A program made the translations under genes and the position numbers. The notes under the pieces were generated by a model, which made no database searches, was not told the DNA's origin, and was given only the letters and a program-made list of their open reading frames with translations. DNA of 64,000 nt, from assembly GCF_014193675.1 (NCBI RefSeq), contig NZ_BLXZ01000001.1, positions 62,001 to 126,000 on the forward strand. The letters run 5' to 3'. The DNA is from Geomonas limicola. Its GTDB lineage: Bacteria; Desulfobacterota; Desulfuromonadia; Geobacterales; Geobacteraceae. This document shows positions 1 to 59,016 of the stretch, piece by piece. Numbering within the stretch: position 1 is the first letter of the stretch; the number at the start of each line of letters is the position of its first letter.

Positions 1-1
1 C

Positions 2-2268
<2,267 letters not shown>

Positions 2269-2272
<4 letters not shown>

Positions 2273-13848: not shown

Positions 13849-15927
13849 ATGAGTGGAACGAAGGAATCTAGTGCCAGATGCTGCAAAATCCTGGCACTAG
13901 GCAAGATGCTTCCCGGTATCGCCGCACTGGTGCTCGGACTGTCCACGCCGGTTCAGGCGACCGACGGCGGAAACATGAGCGAGTTTCTGTCCATGCCCCT
14001 GGAAGACCTGATGCAGATAGAAATCACCTCGGTCTCCAAGAAATCGCAGCGTCTCTCCGACGCGGCTGCGGCGGTCTTCGTCATCACCCAGGAGGACATC
14101 AGGCGCTCGGGTGTGACCAGCATCCCCGAGGCCCTGCGCATGGCACCCGGGGTTCAGGTAGCACGCATCGACGCCAACAAGTGGGCCGTTTCCATTCGCG
14201 GTCTCAACGGGCGTTTCGCCAACAAGCTCCTGGTCCTGATGGACGGGCGCAGCCTCTACTCGCCCCTTTTCGCCGGTGTCTACTGGGAGATGCACGATAC
14301 GCCGCTGGAGGACATCGAACGCATCGAGGTGATCCGCGGGCCCGGGGCGGCACTTTGGGGGGCCAACGCGGTAAACGGGGTGATCAACATCATCACCAAG
14401 TCGTCGGAAGGGACCCAGGGAGGCTTGGTGAGCGCCGGCGGGGGGACCGAGGCGCGTGACTTCGTCACCGCACGCTACGGTTTCGGCTTTGGTAAAGATG
14501 CGCACGCCAGGTTCTTCGTGCGGCACCAGGACACCGCTTCCCAGGTCTACGGTGACGGCACCACGAGCCACGACGCCTGGCAGATGACCCGCACCGGTTT
14601 CCGCCTGGACGCCCAGCCCAGCAGTAGCGATACCCTCACGGTCTCCGGGGATTATTTCGACGGTTCCGCCGAAGAGCGCTACACCCTGTACCGGGTTCCC
14701 ACCCTGCAGGACCCCGGTTTCAGCAGCGACCAGAACGCCACCTCGAAGATGCGCGGCGGCAACCTCCTGGGGCGCTGGCAACGCACCCTGAGCGACACGA
14801 GCAACGTCTCGCTGCAGCTTTACTACGATCATTTGGAACGCAACATGATCATCCTGGGCGAGCGCCAGGATACCCTGGACCTCGATTTCCAGCACCGTTT
14901 CACCCTGTGGAACCGGCAGGACATCATCTGGGGACTCGGCTTCCGCTTCAGTAACGACGCCTTGGCCCAGTCTGCCATCATCTCGTTCAACCCGCCCACC
15001 CGCAGCACCGAACTCTACAGCGCCTTCCTGCACGACGAGATCAAACTGGTCCCGGACCGGCTCTCGCTCATCGTCGGCTCGCGTTTCGAACACAACAGCT
15101 ATACCGGCTTCGAGGTGCAGCCCAACGGCAGGCTCCTTTGGACCCCGGCCACGAACCACACCTTCTGGGGAGCCGTGTCCCGTGCGGTGCGCACCCCGGC
15201 GCGCGGCGACAGCGACATCGTCTACCGCTACCTGGTCGATCCCACCCCGCAGCTCCCGGTGCGCTACGAGATCGACGGCAACAAGTCCTTCAAATCGGAG
15301 AACCTGACCGCCTACGAACTTGGCTACCGAACCGAGCCGGTGCAGCACGTGGCCCTCGACGTGGCCCTCTTTTACAACGACTACCGCAAGCTCCGTGTCC
15401 TCAAGGTCGACCCCTGGCAGTTCGAACCCTCGGCCCAGGCCCCGACCGACATCGTGCAACCGCTCAGCCTCGCCAACCTGATGCACGGGCACACCTACGG
15501 CGTGGAGGTGGCAGCCGAGTGGTCGCCGATCATCTGGTGGCGCCTGCACGCGACCTATTCCTACCTGGTCTCCAAGATGTACCTGGAGAACCCGAGCATC
15601 GACGAGATCAACAAGCGGGATGCCGAAGGCGACAGCCCTGCGCACCAGTTCACGGTCCGCTCGGGAGTGGATCTCGGCAAAGGGGTCGAATTCGATCTCT
15701 TGCTGCGCGGCACCGACAAGTTGAGCTATATCGACCGGTTGAGCATCCCCGGGTACCTGACCCTCGACGCCCGCCTCGCCTGGCGGCCGATACCGAAACT
15801 GGAACTCTCCGTGGTGGGACAGAACCTGTTGCACGAACGCAAGCAGGAGTTCAACCCGGAATTCATCAACACCTTCCCGACGGAGGTGCAGCGCAGCGTC
15901 TACGGAAAGGTCACCTGGAAGTTCTAA
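13849..15927 (+). CDS. TonB-dependent outer membrane receptor, 692 aa
   Basis: A signal peptide (about residues 1-37) is followed by a plug domain (VFVITQEDIRRSG, WAVSIRGLNGRFANKLLVL, IERIEVIRGPGAALWGANA, GVINIITK) and a 22-strand-type barrel ending in the aromatic residue of YGKVTWKF. Such receptors import scarce ligands with TonB-ExbBD energy. The N-terminal region is closely similar to that of the receptor at 56759-58798, so they are paralogues. No transporter or ligand-specific gene lies nearby. The start follows GCAGGAGACTCCCT. Confidence 0.93.
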   Translation: MSGTKESSARCCKILALGKMLPGIAALVLGLSTPVQATDGGNMSEFLSMPLEDLMQIEITSVSKKSQRLSDAAAAVFVITQEDIRRSGVTSIPEALRMAPGVQVARIDANKWAVSIRGLNGRFANKLLVLMDGRSLYSPLFAGVYWEMHDTPLEDIERIEVIRGPGAALWGANAVNGVINIITKSSEGTQGGLVSAGGGTEARDFVTARYGFGFGKDAHARFFVRHQDTASQVYGDGTTSHDAWQMTRTGFRLDAQPSSSDTLTVSGDYFDGSAEERYTLYRVPTLQDPGFSSDQNATSKMRGGNLLGRWQRTLSDTSNVSLQLYYDHLERNMIILGERQDTLDLDFQHRFTLWNRQDIIWGLGFRFSNDALAQSAIISFNPPTRSTELYSAFLHDEIKLVPDRLSLIVGSRFEHNSYTGFEVQPNGRLLWTPATNHTFWGAVSRAVRTPARGDSDIVYRYLVDPTPQLPVRYEIDGNKSFKSENLTAYELGYRTEPVQHVALDVALFYNDYRKLRVLKVDPWQFEPSAQAPTDIVQPLSLANLMHGHTYGVEVAAEWSPIIWWRLHATYSYLVSKMYLENPSIDEINKRDAEGDSPAHQFTVRSGVDLGKGVEFDLLLRGTDKLSYIDRLSIPGYLTLDARLAWRPIPKLELSVVGQNLLHERKQEFNPEFINTFPTEVQRSVYGKVTWKF

Positions 15928-53157: not shown

Positions 53158-55287
53158 CTAAAACCGGTAGGTGGCGCGGACCCCGGCACTGATCCCTTCC
53201 TGGGGAATGGAGCTGACCGGCAGGTGCTCGTTGCCGCCAGGCTGCGAGTAGGTCGTATCAAAGATATTTCGCAGCGAAAGTGACAGGTCGAGCCCTTTCA
53301 GCGCCAGGTCCTTGACCAGGAGGGTCAGGTTGCCGAGCAGGTACGGGGCAACGCTGGCGCCGGGGCTGAGGGTCCCCAGGCGCGAGGTGTACTGGAGTTC
53401 CCCTGAAAGAACGACCTTGCGGGCCAGGAATTCGCGAGCAAGACGCAGTTTCATCAGGTGGTGCGGCGAGTTGGGCGGGTGGGTGGTGCTCCCTTCGTAG
53501 AGCAGCGAGTTCTGGTAGGTATAGCCGAACCCGCCGGACCAATTCTCCCAGGCACCCGAGACCTCGGTCTCGATGCCGCGGCTGCGCATGGTGCCGGCGT
53601 TTTTCAGGCGAAAGAAGCCGTCCCCGTCGATGTAGGTGGTGATGAGCCCCTGGTAGTCATACTGGAACCCGGTGACGGTCGCCCGCCAGGGACCGTCAAG
53701 CTGCAGGTCGGCCACCAGTTCGTTGCTGTACATCACCTCTTCCCTCAGGTCCGGGTTGGCACGATAGGGGTCGGCGGAGTAGTAGCGTTCGTAGGCGTTG
53801 GGAGCCCGGAAAGATCTTCCGAACAGGTATTTGAGGGCGAGTTCGGAAGTCGGCAGCCAGACCACGGCCGCCTTGGGGCTCCAGGAATCGAGTCCCTGGC
53901 TCAACCGGTCGTAGCGCAGACTCCCGGTCAGGATCAGGGACTGGAAAGGACGATGCTCGTCCTGCACGAAAAGGCCGACCTCTTCGACGGTCCGGTCGTC
54001 GTGGAAACCTTTGGAATCCCCCTGCTCGACGCGCAGGCTGTGCCGGTAATCAACCCCGGCGGCGAGGATGTGGTTCGCCGGGAGCACCAGGTTCCCCACC
54101 ACCTCGGCACCGAGGGTTGTGGAATGGGAATGGTCGTAATCGATCGAGACCGGGCGATAGGAGTAGGTACCACTGTAGTTGTAGCCGTTCAGGTAAGCGC
54201 GTAATTTGAGCACACCCGCGGGAGACTCGACGGCATGATAGGAGAGGTCGCCGAAAAAGCGGTCATCCGACGTGCGCGAGGCGTTGTCGTTGAAGGTGGT
54301 GCCCCAGGCACCGGTGGGTATCCCTTTCAGGTTGTGCAGGTAGCCCCCCAACAGGGAGAACTTCGCGCTGTTGAACTTCAAGAACGCGCTGGCGCTGCGG
54401 GCGAAGTCACTGTCGTGCGCCACGCCATGGTTGGTAGCCGGGGTGTCGAAGGCAGGGAAATAGAGATCCTGACCCGGTGCGCCGTAAAAGGACCCGGAAA
54501 CCAGCAGACCGCCGCCCCCACGGGAGACCGGCCCTCCAGCCGTGGCCCGTGCGGAAAAGGCCCCGGTTGTGTCACCGGCGAGTTCGGTCTCGGTCTTCAG
54601 TACCCCCGGAGGAATCCTCGTGATGACGTTGATAACCAGCAAGAAGGCATTGTTCCCGTAGACCGCCTGGCTCGGGCCGCGAACGATCTCGACCCGCTCC
54701 ACCAGCCGCAAATCGAGCGGGAAGTCGAAACCGATGGGCGCCTGGTGGTAGACCTCGTCGTTCAGGCGGACCCCGTCGATCATGATGAGCACCCGGGTGT
54801 TGTAGTCGCTGGGCACGCTGAAACCCCGGTAGCCGAGGTAGCGGTAGTTGTGGTCGTCGGTGACGTAGAGACCGGCCACCCCTTTCAAGAGGTCGGAGAG
54901 CAGCCGGTAGTCGTGGTGCCGGATCTCTTCGGCATCGACCACGGTGACCTGCGCCGGTGCCTCGTGGGCGTCCTGCTCGTAGCGCGAGACGCCGTACACC
55001 TTGAGCACCTTTACCTTCAGGAGTTCATCCAGCCCCAATTCGCTCAGTTCATCGACCCCGCCTTCGGCGGCCAAGGCTCGCGGAGCCGCAAGCAGGAGAA
55101 CATAGAGTAGACAGCAACAAAGAACCCCCAGCAGGCGGCACGTCGACAAGGTTCCTGCGCTCCGGCCGTCCGAACTGCGGAGGCCCGCGACAGCTGAGGA
55201 GCCGGCGCGCGTCATCTCGCCCGATAGGCTGGGTGGCAGTTTCGCAGGCTCGGGAGGTGCAAGAGCAGAATAATCACTGGTGACCAT
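53158..55287 (-). CDS. TonB-dependent outer membrane receptor, 709 aa
   Basis: A long basic N-terminal region with a hydrophobic segment (about 50-73, ending ALA/AEGG) precedes the plug domain (VTVVDAEEIRHHDYRLLSDL, YRGFSVPSDYNTRVLIMIDG, LVERVEIVRGPSQAVYG) and a barrel ending in ATYRF. It is more distant from the other two receptors. The ATG at 55287 overlaps the YfiR stop by 14 nt and uses AAGGAAAGTCT as ribosome binding site; a later ATG (residue 25) would give a more usual signal peptide. The ligand is unknown. Confidence 0.9.
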   Translation of the reverse strand: MVTSDYSALAPPEPAKLPPSLSGEMTRAGSSAVAGLRSSDGRSAGTLSTCRLLGVLCCCLLYVLLLAAPRALAAEGGVDELSELGLDELLKVKVLKVYGVSRYEQDAHEAPAQVTVVDAEEIRHHDYRLLSDLLKGVAGLYVTDDHNYRYLGYRGFSVPSDYNTRVLIMIDGVRLNDEVYHQAPIGFDFPLDLRLVERVEIVRGPSQAVYGNNAFLLVINVITRIPPGVLKTETELAGDTTGAFSARATAGGPVSRGGGGLLVSGSFYGAPGQDLYFPAFDTPATNHGVAHDSDFARSASAFLKFNSAKFSLLGGYLHNLKGIPTGAWGTTFNDNASRTSDDRFFGDLSYHAVESPAGVLKLRAYLNGYNYSGTYSYRPVSIDYDHSHSTTLGAEVVGNLVLPANHILAAGVDYRHSLRVEQGDSKGFHDDRTVEEVGLFVQDEHRPFQSLILTGSLRYDRLSQGLDSWSPKAAVVWLPTSELALKYLFGRSFRAPNAYERYYSADPYRANPDLREEVMYSNELVADLQLDGPWRATVTGFQYDYQGLITTYIDGDGFFRLKNAGTMRSRGIETEVSGAWENWSGGFGYTYQNSLLYEGSTTHPPNSPHHLMKLRLAREFLARKVVLSGELQYTSRLGTLSPGASVAPYLLGNLTLLVKDLALKGLDLSLSLRNIFDTTYSQPGGNEHLPVSSIPQEGISAGVRATYRF

Positions 55288-55822
55288 AGACTTTCCTTGC
55301 CATTTTCAGCAGCTGCGCGCTCACCTTCAGCCGGCAACGCTGCGTTTCGTTGAGATTGACCTCGAAGGCGATCTTGCCGTTCTCCTGGTAAAGCGCCAGC
55401 ATCCCGCCGCGCCTGCAGAAGTCTTCGCGGTCGGAAATGGTCAGGATGGGAAGATCGCCAAGGGCACTAAGGATGCCGTCGAATCTGCCGAGTTCGGAGC
55501 GGGAGACGAAGAGGATCTGGCACTGCGCGGCTTCCTCGGGGGAGCTGACCTGGCGGAACACGATGGGGTGGCCCTGGACCAACCTTCCGGTCAGCCCGCT
55601 GAGGCTGCGATCCAGCGGGGTGCGCCCCAGGGTGGCAATGCAAAACTCCGAGCGGTGCAGGGAGCCGGGAGGCCACTCGAGGTACTTGGTGAAGTTGTAG
55701 ATAAAGGCCGCCTTCAGGCTGTACTCGCCCGAAGAGGTCTCGGCACCGCCTCCGGAAGGAAGGGAAACAAGCAACAGGGTAACGATGCAGGTTACCCAAA
55801 AGAGCACCGACCGGGTCGCCAT
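55274..55822 (-). CDS. YfiR-family (DUF4154) periplasmic protein, 182 aa
   Basis: The signal peptide starts at MATRSVLFWVTCIVTLLLVS, and the body has the YfiR pattern EYSLKAAFIYNFTKYLEWP, FCIATLGRTPL, VFRQVSSPEEAAQCQILFVS, LTISDREDFCRRGGMLALY and KIAFEVNLNETQRCRLKVS. YfiR proteins repress membrane diguanylate cyclases such as YfiN in Pseudomonas. The start was set at residue 87 of a longer frame, because that gives the family length and has AGGA 5 nt upstream. It is the downstream one of two YfiR paralogues. Confidence 0.88.
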   Translation of the reverse strand: MATRSVLFWVTCIVTLLLVSLPSGGGAETSSGEYSLKAAFIYNFTKYLEWPPGSLHRSEFCIATLGRTPLDRSLSGLTGRLVQGHPIVFRQVSSPEEAAQCQILFVSRSELGRFDGILSALGDLPILTISDREDFCRRGGMLALYQENGKIAFEVNLNETQRCRLKVSAQLLKMARKVYGHQ

Positions 55823-56180
55823 TGATCCTGCGGACGCTATGTAAGATTTCCTGGTTGCCAACATCACCTTCCGGGCGTGGTGCGTCATACCTGTCGGTTC
55901 GTCTCTGCAGGGGAGGATAAAAGAGGCGCGAGGCACCATGTGGGATCTCGCAGGCTCATTCCAGCTCATCGACAGATAGCGGGGTTTTATGAAGCTCTCT
56001 CCAAAGCTGTCCGCCGGGAGAGCGGCGCTGTCGGAGGTCGTCTCGTGCGGATTCGGATGATACTCAAAAAACGGAGGCAAGTGGGCTTCGATATACCTGA
56101 GAAGGGGGAGGCGAATCCACTACACCATCAGGCGAACCGGCAGGCTCCCGCCCCCCCCAGCGGCATTGGAAGGGAGCCGT
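55823..56180. other. 358-bp gap between the two yfiR-like genes
   Basis: The frame of the downstream yfiR-like gene stays open here for 86 codons on the minus strand, but the sequence does not look like a YfiR part. No promoter or terminator was recognised with confidence. Confidence 0.4.
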
Positions 56181-56771
56181 TCAGAGACGACCGTAGATCC
56201 TGCGTGCCAGTTTGAGGAGCTGCGAACTGGCCTTGAGACGGGCGCGCTGGGTCTCGCGCAGGTTGACGTCAAAAACGATCCTGCCGCTATCCTGGTCAAG
56301 GCAAAGCATCCCGCCACGCCGGCAAAAATCCTCCCGGTCCGCGACAGTGAGCACCGGCTGGTCCCTGAGCAGGTCGAGAATGCCGTCTACCCTGGCAAGT
56401 TCGGAACGCGAGAGGAAGACCACCTGGCACTGCGCTGCCTCCTCTGGGGAATTCAACCGGCGAAACAAGATGTTGCGTCCCTGTACGCTGCGCCCGGCCA
56501 GGGAGGACAGGGGCTGGTCAAGCGGCGAACGCCCGAGCGTTCCGATGCAGAATTCGCTCTTTCCCTTGAAGGCGCTTTCCGGCCACTCGACGAACTTGGA
56601 GAAGTTGTAGATGAAGGCGGCCTTCAGGGCGAACTCACCCGAGGCGGTTTCACTCCCCCCGTCATGCGGTAGCCCCACCAACAAAAGCAGCAGCGCCAGA
56701 GAGAAAGCGCGTTGGCAGTGCCGGGAGCTGCAAAGGGCACCCCAGATGCGCAGGGTTCCTAGAAGTCCCAC
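56181..56771 (-). CDS. YfiR-family (DUF4154) periplasmic protein, 196 aa
   Basis: A close paralogue of the protein at 55274-55822: FALKAAFIYNFSKFVEWPES, FCIGTLGRSPLDQPLSSLAG, LNSPEEAAQCQVVFLSRSEL, VADREDFCRRGGMLCL, RIVFDVNLRETQRARLKAS. It has a signal peptide (about residues 1-40). The start overlaps the 3' end of the upstream TonB receptor gene by 13 nt, so translation is probably coupled. A periplasmic signalling role is inferred; no diguanylate cyclase is adjacent. Confidence 0.9.
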   Translation of the reverse strand: MGLLGTLRIWGALCSSRHCQRAFSLALLLLLVGLPHDGGSETASGEFALKAAFIYNFSKFVEWPESAFKGKSEFCIGTLGRSPLDQPLSSLAGRSVQGRNILFRRLNSPEEAAQCQVVFLSRSELARVDGILDLLRDQPVLTVADREDFCRRGGMLCLDQDSGRIVFDVNLRETQRARLKASSQLLKLARRIYGRL

Positions 56772-58798
56772 GTCACCTTACCGTACAGGCTCCTCGCCAT
56801 CTCGTGCCTGGCCAGGGTCTGGTCGGTCACCGTTTCCAGGTGGCGGCGCTCCAGCAGGTTCTGCCCCACCAGTGCCAGTTCCCAGCCGGGGGCGGGGCGC
56901 CAGGCAAGGCGTGCGTCAAGGGTCAGGTAGGCGGGGATCCGCACGTTCTCCTGCTGCAGCTGGTAATAGTTCCCCCCGACGTAACGCCCCCAAAGATCCA
57001 GGTCCACCCACTTCCCGAGGCTCATCAAGGAGCGCAAGGTGGCCTGGTGCTCCGGGGAGGCTTTGCTCCCTGGGTTCCCCTGGGGCGCTTCCCCGAAAAC
57101 CCGCAGCAACGCGTAGCCCCCCTTGAGCTTCCACCAATCCTGGGGCTGCCACTGCAGCGAGACTTCCCCGCCGGTACTGTCGATGCTACCGAGGTTCACG
57201 AAGTTGTCGGGAAGCAGTTGCTGGTTTCCCGAGGTGACCACGGCGCCAAACCTGTTGCCGACGATGTTGTGGTAGCGGTTGAAAAAGGTGGAGAGATCGA
57301 GTGAAACGGCGTGATTGAGGTCGCTTCGGAATCCGGCCTCGTAGGAGATGACGGTTTCCGAGACGAGCCCGCGGTTGCCGGTGAGTACCAGCAAGGTGGG
57401 GACGCCGGCCGGCGGGGTCGGCGGGATCAGGCCGACGCCGATCCGGATATCGTTTTCGCCGCGGGTCGGGGTACGCACCGAACGCGTTACCGACGCCCAT
57501 AAGCTCATCCCCTTGCGCGGGGTCCAGGATAGTTTGGCCGAGGGTGCGAACTCCCACCCGGTGAACTCGTTGTGCTCGACCTTGCTTCCCAGCATAAGCC
57601 GCAGGGTCTCGGGGAGCAGGCTGATCTCGTCCTGGACAAAGAGGTTCACGTGCGAGAGTCCGCGGCTGTCAGGAACGAGGTAAAAAAAAGGGCTGCCGGG
57701 CGAGCTATCCTGCAGGTACCGGTAGCCTACCCCCCAGGTCAGTTCGTGGCGTCCCCCGAGGTTCACGTTGTGCTGCAGGTCGAGGTCGACCGTGTTGCGG
57801 GTCTCCTGAACCAGGGGGATGTCGCGTTGGGTGCGGTCGTAGTAAAGCTGCAGCGACCACTTCGAGGTGGGCGCCTGGAGCCAGTCGAGCCGGCCGATCA
57901 GGTTCGCGCCAAAAACGCTGGCGGCATAGGTAGGGTTACTGAAATAAGGGGACGCATAGGCAGGGATCACGTAACTGTGATCGGAGTTCCCGCCGTAGAC
58001 ATCGCCTTGAAAGGTGAAATCAAGACCGTCGCGCAGGGCGCTGTCGACCCTGAAGCCCCCCCTGGTGATCTCGAGAGTGTCCGGACTTGGCAGGTTGATC
58101 GCATCGGTACTGCCCCGGTCGACGTGCTTCAGGTAGAGCCGGTAGCTCGACTGTTCACCGAGCTCGGCTCCGTAGCGGACCCCCAGCGTCCCGCGCTCAC
58201 GGCTTCCCACCAGCCCCAAAACCAGCCCGCCCTGGGTGTCGCGCGCGCTCTTGGTGATGATGTTGATCACCCCGTTCACGGCATTGGCACCCCACATGGT
58301 GCTGCCCGGCCCGCGGATCACCTCGATACGCTCGATGTTCTCCAGCAGGGTGTCCTGCACGTCCCAAAAGACGCCGCCGTAGAGCGGGGTATAGACGGTA
58401 CGCCCATCGATCATCACCAGGAGCTTGTTGGCGAAGATGCCGTTGAAGCCGCGCACCGAAACCGCCCAGTCGTTGCCGTCCATGCTGGCAACCTGGACTC
58501 CCGGGACCATGCGCAACAGATCCGGAATGGTGGTGGCGCCCGAGTGCCGGATATCTTCCTGGGTAATCACGAAGACCGCCGAGGCTACCTCGGAGAGCGC
58601 CTGGGTCTTGCGGGAGGCGGAGACCACGGGGACGTCCAGCAGGCGTTCCAGGGGCAGATCCAGGACATCGGGCCCTTCAGCTGCCTGCAACGGAGCGGGT
58701 CCGAGGGAAACCGTCAATGCCAGGGACACTAAGACGATGGCGACCATTTGCAGCACGGCCACCCCCGGTTTTCTACTCTGAATGCTCATAGTACGCAT
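56759..58798 (-). CDS. TonB-dependent outer membrane receptor, 679 aa
   Basis: A signal peptide (about residues 1-40, ending LQA/AEG) leads to a plug domain (VFVITQEDIRHSGATTIPDL, WAVSVRGFNGIFANKLLVMI, IERIEVIRGPGSTMWGANAV, NGVINIITK) and a barrel ending YGKVTWDF. The plug is very like that of the receptor at 13849-15927. It is first in the run TonB receptor, yfiR, yfiR, TonB receptor. The ribosome binding site is AGAAGGGGG. Confidence 0.93.
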   Translation of the reverse strand: MRTMSIQSRKPGVAVLQMVAIVLVSLALTVSLGPAPLQAAEGPDVLDLPLERLLDVPVVSASRKTQALSEVASAVFVITQEDIRHSGATTIPDLLRMVPGVQVASMDGNDWAVSVRGFNGIFANKLLVMIDGRTVYTPLYGGVFWDVQDTLLENIERIEVIRGPGSTMWGANAVNGVINIITKSARDTQGGLVLGLVGSRERGTLGVRYGAELGEQSSYRLYLKHVDRGSTDAINLPSPDTLEITRGGFRVDSALRDGLDFTFQGDVYGGNSDHSYVIPAYASPYFSNPTYAASVFGANLIGRLDWLQAPTSKWSLQLYYDRTQRDIPLVQETRNTVDLDLQHNVNLGGRHELTWGVGYRYLQDSSPGSPFFYLVPDSRGLSHVNLFVQDEISLLPETLRLMLGSKVEHNEFTGWEFAPSAKLSWTPRKGMSLWASVTRSVRTPTRGENDIRIGVGLIPPTPPAGVPTLLVLTGNRGLVSETVISYEAGFRSDLNHAVSLDLSTFFNRYHNIVGNRFGAVVTSGNQQLLPDNFVNLGSIDSTGGEVSLQWQPQDWWKLKGGYALLRVFGEAPQGNPGSKASPEHQATLRSLMSLGKWVDLDLWGRYVGGNYYQLQQENVRIPAYLTLDARLAWRPAPGWELALVGQNLLERRHLETVTDQTLARHEMARSLYGKVTWDF

Positions 58799-58969: not shown

Positions 58970-58998
58970 AAAAAAAAAGCCCTGAAGGAGCCAGGGCT
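58970..58998 (-). terminator. Terminator of the efflux operon
   Basis: On the minus strand GCCCTGG, a loop and CAGGGC are followed by nine T residues, 18 bp beyond the stop of the emrB-like gene. Confidence 0.9.
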
Positions 58999-59016
58999 TG
59001 GCTGAGCCAATCTGGA

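Follow-up and report, generated by a model that had tools for sequence, protein, structure and literature searches.

What might two neighbouring genes for periplasmic YfiR proteins, each coupled to a TonB-dependent receptor gene, be doing where no sensor gene accompanies them? The question arises from a four-gene block in a 64,000-nucleotide stretch of the Geomonas limicola genome (contig NZ_BLXZ01000001.1, positions 62,001 to 126,000; hereafter the window, in whose numbering unlabelled positions are given). Along the minus strand, the block consists of receptor A (679 amino acids, 56759..58798), yfiR-A (196 amino acids, 56181..56771), yfiR-B (196 amino acids, 55274..55864) and receptor B (709 amino acids, 53158..55287). 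In our view there is about an even chance that it represents a doubled, sensor-less form of a receptor-YfiR-CHASE8 cassette, which would feed extra inputs in trans to the CHASE8 kinases of the genome. A preliminary description of this DNA had proposed a receptor-linked periplasmic signalling module. The receptor-YfiR link does recur widely, but a self-contained system fits less well than a kinase-less offshoot, because the cassette normally ends in a CHASE8 sensor and because a complete module adjoins and enters the window. The doubled, sensor-less form is new, while cassettes of this kind are already catalogued in NCBIfam.

The usual company of receptor-YfiR pairs

All four block frames are open in G. 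limicola. Coordinates and Pfam assignments agree with the preliminary description, in which two adjacent YfiR paralogues were placed on one strand with a TonB receptor on either side. Both YfiRs belong to the DUF4154 family (PF13689, 153 bits for YfiR-A and 143.5 bits for YfiR-B), and both receptors carry Plug and barrel domains (both intact in receptor A), which are the only families listed by Pfam for them, with no N-terminal signalling (STN) domain. The overlaps proposed earlier can be read directly from the sequence: 13 nt between the receptor A stop and the yfiR-A start (56759..56771, minus strand), the GTG start of yfiR-A lying within receptor A, and 14 nt between the yfiR-B stop and the receptor B start, which is provided with the Shine-Dalgarno motif AAGGA (55274..55287, minus strand). 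According to Pfam, the block is flanked by an efflux-type major facilitator superfamily (MFS) gene and an enolase-superfamily gene. Between these two flanking genes, we found no kinase of family NF053592 and no other CHASE8 sensor. The absence of a diguanylate cyclase partner, pointed out earlier, thus holds for the block, the missing type of partner being a CHASE8 sensor.

That such a sensor is the expected partner emerges from three surveys, in which genes were called by profiles built on the family and considered adjacent when located on the same strand less than 400 nt apart. Neighbours were counted from all frames of at least 90 amino acids, some of which are too long at their 5' end, and large negative intergenic distances are artefacts of these overextended frames. 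The first survey covers 48 genomes of the family, 31 of which carry DUF4154 (43 genes). Excluding the two YfiRs of the block, 41 genes were read (39 from other genomes and two of the four of G. limicola): a TonB receptor is adjacent to 35 of them and a CHASE8 gene to 31, six more having CHASE8 within 3.5 kb. The corresponding sensors are 21 kinases, 15 GGDEF proteins and one protein with CHASE8 only, four YfiR genes having none. The second survey concerns the best 80 of at least 558 confirmed relatives in named genomes, a set that favours close relatives. Among its 83 YfiR genes, 64 have a receptor (upstream of YfiR in 62 cases), 72 have a CHASE8 gene and 56 have both; 54 of the 72 sensors are kinases and 8 are GGDEF proteins, the other 10 being cut or of another type. 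At two loci (L106 and L116), the CHASE8 gene adjoins YfiR on the opposite strand. Finally, an even draw from the phylum yielded DUF4154 in 25 of 198 genomes (G. limicola included), as scored with our own profiles alone and unchecked by Pfam. After removal of one match below the cut-off from the 32 found outside G. limicola, and of one locus lacking a YfiR frame of at least 90 amino acids from the remaining 31, 30 loci were left, among which 26 have both receptor and CHASE8, two CHASE8 only and two a receptor only (28/30 for each gene).

The usual third gene beside a receptor-YfiR pair therefore encodes a CHASE8 sensor of the inner membrane, in most cases a hybrid kinase and sometimes a GGDEF cyclase. 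Pfam recovered CHASE8 in all 75 sensor N-termini submitted (72 from the named genomes and three from the family) and the plug in 62 of 64 receptor N-termini (61 from the named genomes after one duplicate was dropped, and three from G. limicola), with no STN domain in any of these 64 at E <= 0.001. Within the family, CHASE8 exceeds its cut-off in 31/31 genomes with DUF4154 and in 1/17 genomes without it (Fisher, 8e-12, a value inflated by shared ancestry, for which it is not corrected). YfiR relatives in our tree bear the labels of 12 phyla, 11 of which include one or more loci with the complete side-by-side cassette (most are metagenome bins, of which single labels may be wrong).

The recurrence of DUF4154 genes beside TonB receptors had been suggested earlier as a check on the proposed module, and the pairing does recur in the three surveys (35/41, 64/83 and 28/30), one of them evenly drawn from the phylum. 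This makes it very improbable that the block merely brings two ordinary uptake receptors next to YfiR genes by chance, with no functional link. NCBIfam 20.0 argues in the same direction: its receptor family NF053590 and its YfiR-like family NF053591 take their names from two adjoining locus tags, TOL_0244 and TOL_0243, and its kinase family NF053592 is described as associated with YfiR-like proteins. YfiR-A exceeds the cut-off of NF053591 (128.7 bits for a cut-off of 125), and receptor A, a TOL_0244-like protein, matches NF053590 along the full model (positions 2-604, 613.5 bits); the receptor-first order and the overlap are also as in relatives. Unlike the catalogued trio, however, the block has no kinase and two YfiRs, YfiR-B (121.4 bits) and receptor A (cut-off 645) fall slightly below the curated cut-offs, and receptor B, at 104 bits, is far from the NF053590 cut-off and belongs to another subfamily.

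Two better-known systems offer points of comparison. With YfiBNR of Pseudomonas aeruginosa and Escherichia coli, the block shares the YfiR fold and the DUF4154 family, and the usual partner of the cassette carries the CHASE8 domain which our search also matched, as a control, in E. coli. It differs in that its outer-membrane partner is a TonB receptor and not the OmpA-like lipoprotein YfiB (absent among the block neighbours, the only part of the genome searched for it), in that the G. limicola genome encodes no CHASE8-GGDEF protein, and in that the block YfiRs miss NF053586, the family of YfiR proper (54 and 50.9 bits for a cut-off of 85). The second comparison is with transducers of the FecA/FpvA type, in which a TonB receptor is coupled to signalling. 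The general idea of a receptor tied to signalling is common to both, but neither receptors A and B nor any of the 64 receptor N-termini carry the N-terminal signalling domain, and the block flanks are the MFS and enolase-superfamily genes instead of a FecR-like or sigma-factor gene. The cassette is widespread yet little studied: open-licence full texts yielded no study of its function in signalling (subscription journals being mostly outside this scope). Proteomic data are reported for one receptor, as TOL_0244 of Thalassolituus oleivorans is up sevenfold on C28 alkane relative to Tween 80 (available text of PMC6304351). A paper on a cyclase sensing polycyclic aromatic hydrocarbons, also considered, is unrelated to the cassette as far as its available text goes (PMC8547461).

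Candidate partners in the genome

The G. limicola genome contains four DUF4154 genes. Besides the two of the block, one belongs to a complete module located about 51 kb to its left, made of a REC-PAS-GGDEF-EAL gene, a receptor, a YfiR and a CHASE8-HAMP hybrid kinase. This kinase (L005:6802-9273) crosses window position 1, with its first 200 nt left of the window and its 3' part at 1..2272 on the plus strand (PF17152 CHASE8, 59.3 bits, plus HAMP), and is a candidate partner in trans. The fourth gene, on contig C10, stands beside another CHASE8 hybrid kinase without a receptor; this kinase (L006:8655-11501) scores 197.1 bits against NF053592 in the genome search and 191 as a single protein (cut-off 194). 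These two hybrid kinases are the strong ones among the three CHASE8 frames of the genome, and none of the three is among the 29 GGDEF matches. A YfiN-like cyclase encoded elsewhere, which the preliminary description had suggested looking for, can thus be dismissed as the missing partner, no CHASE8 frame coinciding with a GGDEF match. In contrast, the gene after YfiR encodes a CHASE8 protein that also matches GGDEF in 15 of 18 congeners (27-33 bits with our own GGDEF profile). The output of the complete module's kinase may reach cyclic di-GMP, as hinted by the REC-PAS-GGDEF-EAL receiver protein encoded in the same module; that gene (L005:1970-4117) overlaps the module's receptor frame by 41 nt, as mechanically called. 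On C10, a 251-amino-acid exported-looking protein without Pfam family (L006:6974-7729) lies ahead of the YfiR-kinase pair, at the usual place of the receptor. The window also contains a third receptor of the TOL_0244 family, at 13849-15927 on the plus strand (NF053590, 692.9 bits, above the cut-off of 645), which neither a YfiR gene nor a CHASE8 gene adjoins.

The spread of receptors, adaptors and sensors over this genome is thus uneven, which makes sharing between loci plausible. If the block does feed the CHASE8 kinases in trans, receptors A and B would each recognise a ligand of their own at the outer membrane, and each would alter the free periplasmic amount of the YfiR made together with it, YfiR probably being held or released at the inner face of the plug. 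By analogy with YfiB, which is reported to sequester YfiR, we infer that the receptor would set how much YfiR is free for CHASE8. Both YfiRs might then bind in trans to the CHASE8 domains carried by the two hybrid kinases (that of the module about 51 kb away and that of the C10 pair), and this binding could either lower or raise kinase activity.

Receptor-YfiR loci without a sensor are also found elsewhere: L070 and L100 in the family survey, L172 and L174 among the named genomes, and L231 in the phylum sample. L107 and L232 also lack a sensor, but they are cut by contig ends. At L070, an 820-amino-acid frame upstream of the receptor shows a weak likeness, over 70 residues, to the kinase N-terminus. 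The four family genomes with sensor-less receptor-YfiR loci (G. limicola itself, G. silvestris or G024, G006 and G027) all have CHASE8 elsewhere. Pairs may also multiply next to a sensor, as L113 and L110 show two receptor-YfiR pairs ahead of one kinase, and L072 has the order receptor, YfiR, receptor, CHASE8 kinase with a 13-nt overlap (its first receptor is cut by the contig end). As a separate observation, several TonB receptors or receptor-YfiR pairs stand beside one CHASE8 kinase at L113:3052-10859, L110:5952-16143, L210, L215 and L237, and several receptors or pairs are found without a CHASE8 kinase on the cut contig L107 (1101-6019).

Duplication, constraint and possible decay

The preliminary description called the block a mirror image. 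Its gene order justifies this image, but all genes lie on one strand and the receptors are not duplicates, only yfiR having been duplicated. Identity between YfiR-A and YfiR-B reaches 65% over 169 amino acids, compared with 41-44% between them and the two other YfiRs of the genome. Receptors A and B can be aligned only over 146 amino acids of the plug region (34% identity). Receptor A resembles a receptor from another module over a much longer stretch (45% identity over 657 amino acids). In a tree of 123 YfiR sequences, YfiR-A, YfiR-B and two Geomonas silvestris orthologues form one clade (support 100/98), within which each gene is grouped with its orthologue (100/92 and 100/91). The yfiR duplication thus predates the split from G. 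silvestris. An inverted duplication of a whole receptor-yfiR pair was also considered and rejected, as the receptors are not duplicates and the YfiRs are sisters in the tree.

Geomonas silvestris, the sister species, has the only other genome with a tandem yfiR pair among the 48 of the family; no tandem DUF4154 pair was found in the 17 other congeners examined. YfiR-B and receptor B are intact in this species. Ratios of nonsynonymous to synonymous substitution rates (dN/dS) between the two species are 0.165 for YfiR-B, 0.13 for the YfiR-A core, 0.18 for the whole of receptor B (0.117 for its mature part) and 0.14 for what remains of receptor A, compared with 0.11-0.12 for the flanking genes. 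Such low values indicate that purifying selection has acted on the block genes over most of the period following the species split.

Several observations weigh against the block being a functional offshoot acting in trans. The full four-gene block is seen in G. limicola only, among the genomes surveyed, and YfiR-A and YfiR-B sit on a long branch (0.61) of the YfiR tree. Both candidate CHASE8 kinases already adjoin a YfiR of their own. In G. silvestris, moreover, all that can still be aligned of receptor A is residues 97-209, and YfiR-A lacks a start of its own as well as some 20 N-terminal residues, so that it is read on in frame from the plug remnant. These losses, together with the lack of tandem pairs in the 17 other congeners and the existence of the order receptor, YfiR, receptor, kinase at L072, are what would be expected if the block were a relic, which once lost its own CHASE8 kinase and the genes of which are now vanishing, perhaps retaining transport but no signal. 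We regard such a decay as unlikely, without being negligible: none of the four frames is interrupted in G. limicola, dN/dS is 0.12-0.18 for receptor B, YfiR-B and the YfiR-A core, the start and overlap of receptor B are preserved base for base, and YfiR-A and YfiR-B group with receptor-first modules and not with the L072 clade (with modest support, 86/75). Judging from the substitution pattern, receptor A itself seems to have been lost recently in G. silvestris. In G. silvestris YfiR-A, a near-invariant asparagine at position 170 (present in 118 of the 123 YfiRs) is changed, the core dN/dS still being 0.13. The loss of a disulfide cysteine was dropped as proof of decay of this protein, since position 150 is a cysteine in only 16 of the 123 YfiRs.

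Reading frames and flanking signals were compared between the same two species. The mechanical open reading frame of YfiR-B, which begins with a TTG at 56080 and encodes 268 amino acids, is probably overextended, and the true start would be the ATG at 55864, which gives a protein of the same size as YfiR-A: this ATG is preceded by GGAAGG, a motif conserved in G. silvestris, whose YfiR-B frame has a GTG start within 2 nt of the matching position. A start at 55864 leaves a gap of 316 nt between yfiR-A and yfiR-B (55865..56180, minus strand). Translation of each YfiR had been proposed to be coupled to that of a receptor through the overlaps. This idea gains support for receptor B, as the 26 nt around its start inside yfiR-B, including the Shine-Dalgarno motif, are identical in G. 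silvestris although codons 1-45 diverge (29% protein identity, dN/dS of 0.65). A start of receptor B downstream of 55287 was rejected, as both species share the frame, the 709-amino-acid length and the identical start region. The 13-nt overlap between receptor and yfiR is found, as frames were called, in 6 of the 64 named pairs and at L072.

The block probably begins its own transcription unit, since a terminator-like hairpin lies 3' of the upstream efflux gene (58977..58999, minus strand) and the corresponding position in G. silvestris can also be read as a hairpin with a T-run. The scan found 9 terminator-like sites in the whole window for 6.0 expected, this one having the longest T-run. Within the block, the gap between the yfiR genes shows conserved patches when aligned with the G. 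silvestris locus and no sigma-70 consensus match in a scan of 55865-56180. A second promoter there is possible, and the block may form one or two transcription units.

Adaptor folds and a possible receptor-adaptor-sensor plan

An AlphaFold2 model of YfiR-A (predicted local distance difference test score, pLDDT, 90.1) matches P. aeruginosa YfiR with a Z-score of 18.8 (2.3 A over 145 residues). Behind YfiR, the solved structures closest to the model are those of the substrate-binding proteins 3lkv (Z-score of 13.9), 3lft and 6hni. The kinship of YfiR to 3LFT and 3LKV is reported in the YfiB-YfiR structure paper (available text of PMC4655355). The receptor A model (pLDDT 84.2) is an ordinary TonB-dependent transporter, for which the best Foldseek matches (PirA, Cir, PfeA and BtuB) rank close together.

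This kinship suggests another role, in which YfiR would be a one-lobed relative of substrate-binding proteins taking the imported ligand from the receptor, so that the block would serve capture or transport, any signalling being secondary. TonB receptors of Geomonas also pair with substrate-binding proteins of family PF04392 (21/21 reading frames read, in a chosen subset of loci), and one of these proteins, from locus L205 of G. limicola, matches 3lkv, 3lft and 6hni by sequence. These receptor-adjacent loci keep the carrier model alive. We nevertheless consider it improbable, slightly more so than a relic in decay: in the available text of PMC4655355, YfiR covers only one lobe of the two-lobed substrate-binding fold, and P. 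aeruginosa YfiR is presented as a repressor that YfiB sequesters. Furthermore, no inner-membrane importer gene flanks the block, its neighbours being the efflux-type MFS gene, across the hairpin, and the enolase-superfamily gene.

Coming back to inputs shared with CHASE8 kinases, the cassette could be one form of a more general relay from the outer to the inner membrane, a broader proposal that we hold as doubtful, though not far-fetched. In such a relay, a receptor would act on a CHASE8 sensor through an adaptor, which would be a substrate-binding protein either reduced to one lobe (YfiR) or complete (PF04392); YfiBNR would be a derived form in which the receptor was replaced by YfiB; and receptor-adaptor pairs, as in the block, could become more numerous with no sensor of their own and converge on one kinase. 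If true, one kinase would read several ligands through multiplied receptor-adaptor pairs. The G. limicola genome, with its sensor-less pairs, its receptor-less YfiR-kinase pair and its complete module, would offer a natural test bed for the question of whether such relays mix and match their parts, and it bears on the question of whether the ancestral partner of YfiR was a TonB receptor.

Two loci of the same genome, L204:2380-7463 on contig C9 and L205:2377-6694 on contig C7, have a TonB receptor, a PF04392 protein and a HAMP kinase in a row. The C9 kinase matches CHASE8 weakly (24.6 bits as a protein, for a cut-off of 27, and 28.9 in the genome search), and Pfam finds no CHASE8 in the C7 kinase. 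Together with these two loci, we read 20 others picked from 57-83-bit PF04392 matches in 19 Geomonas genomes, a sample that leaves out the stronger, ordinary-looking matches and the remaining weak ones. A PF04392 reading frame is present in 21 of the 22 loci (there is none in L270), with a receptor adjacent in all 21 and a kinase directly beside it in 8. Loci of the C9 and C7 type thus support a general receptor-adaptor-sensor plan.

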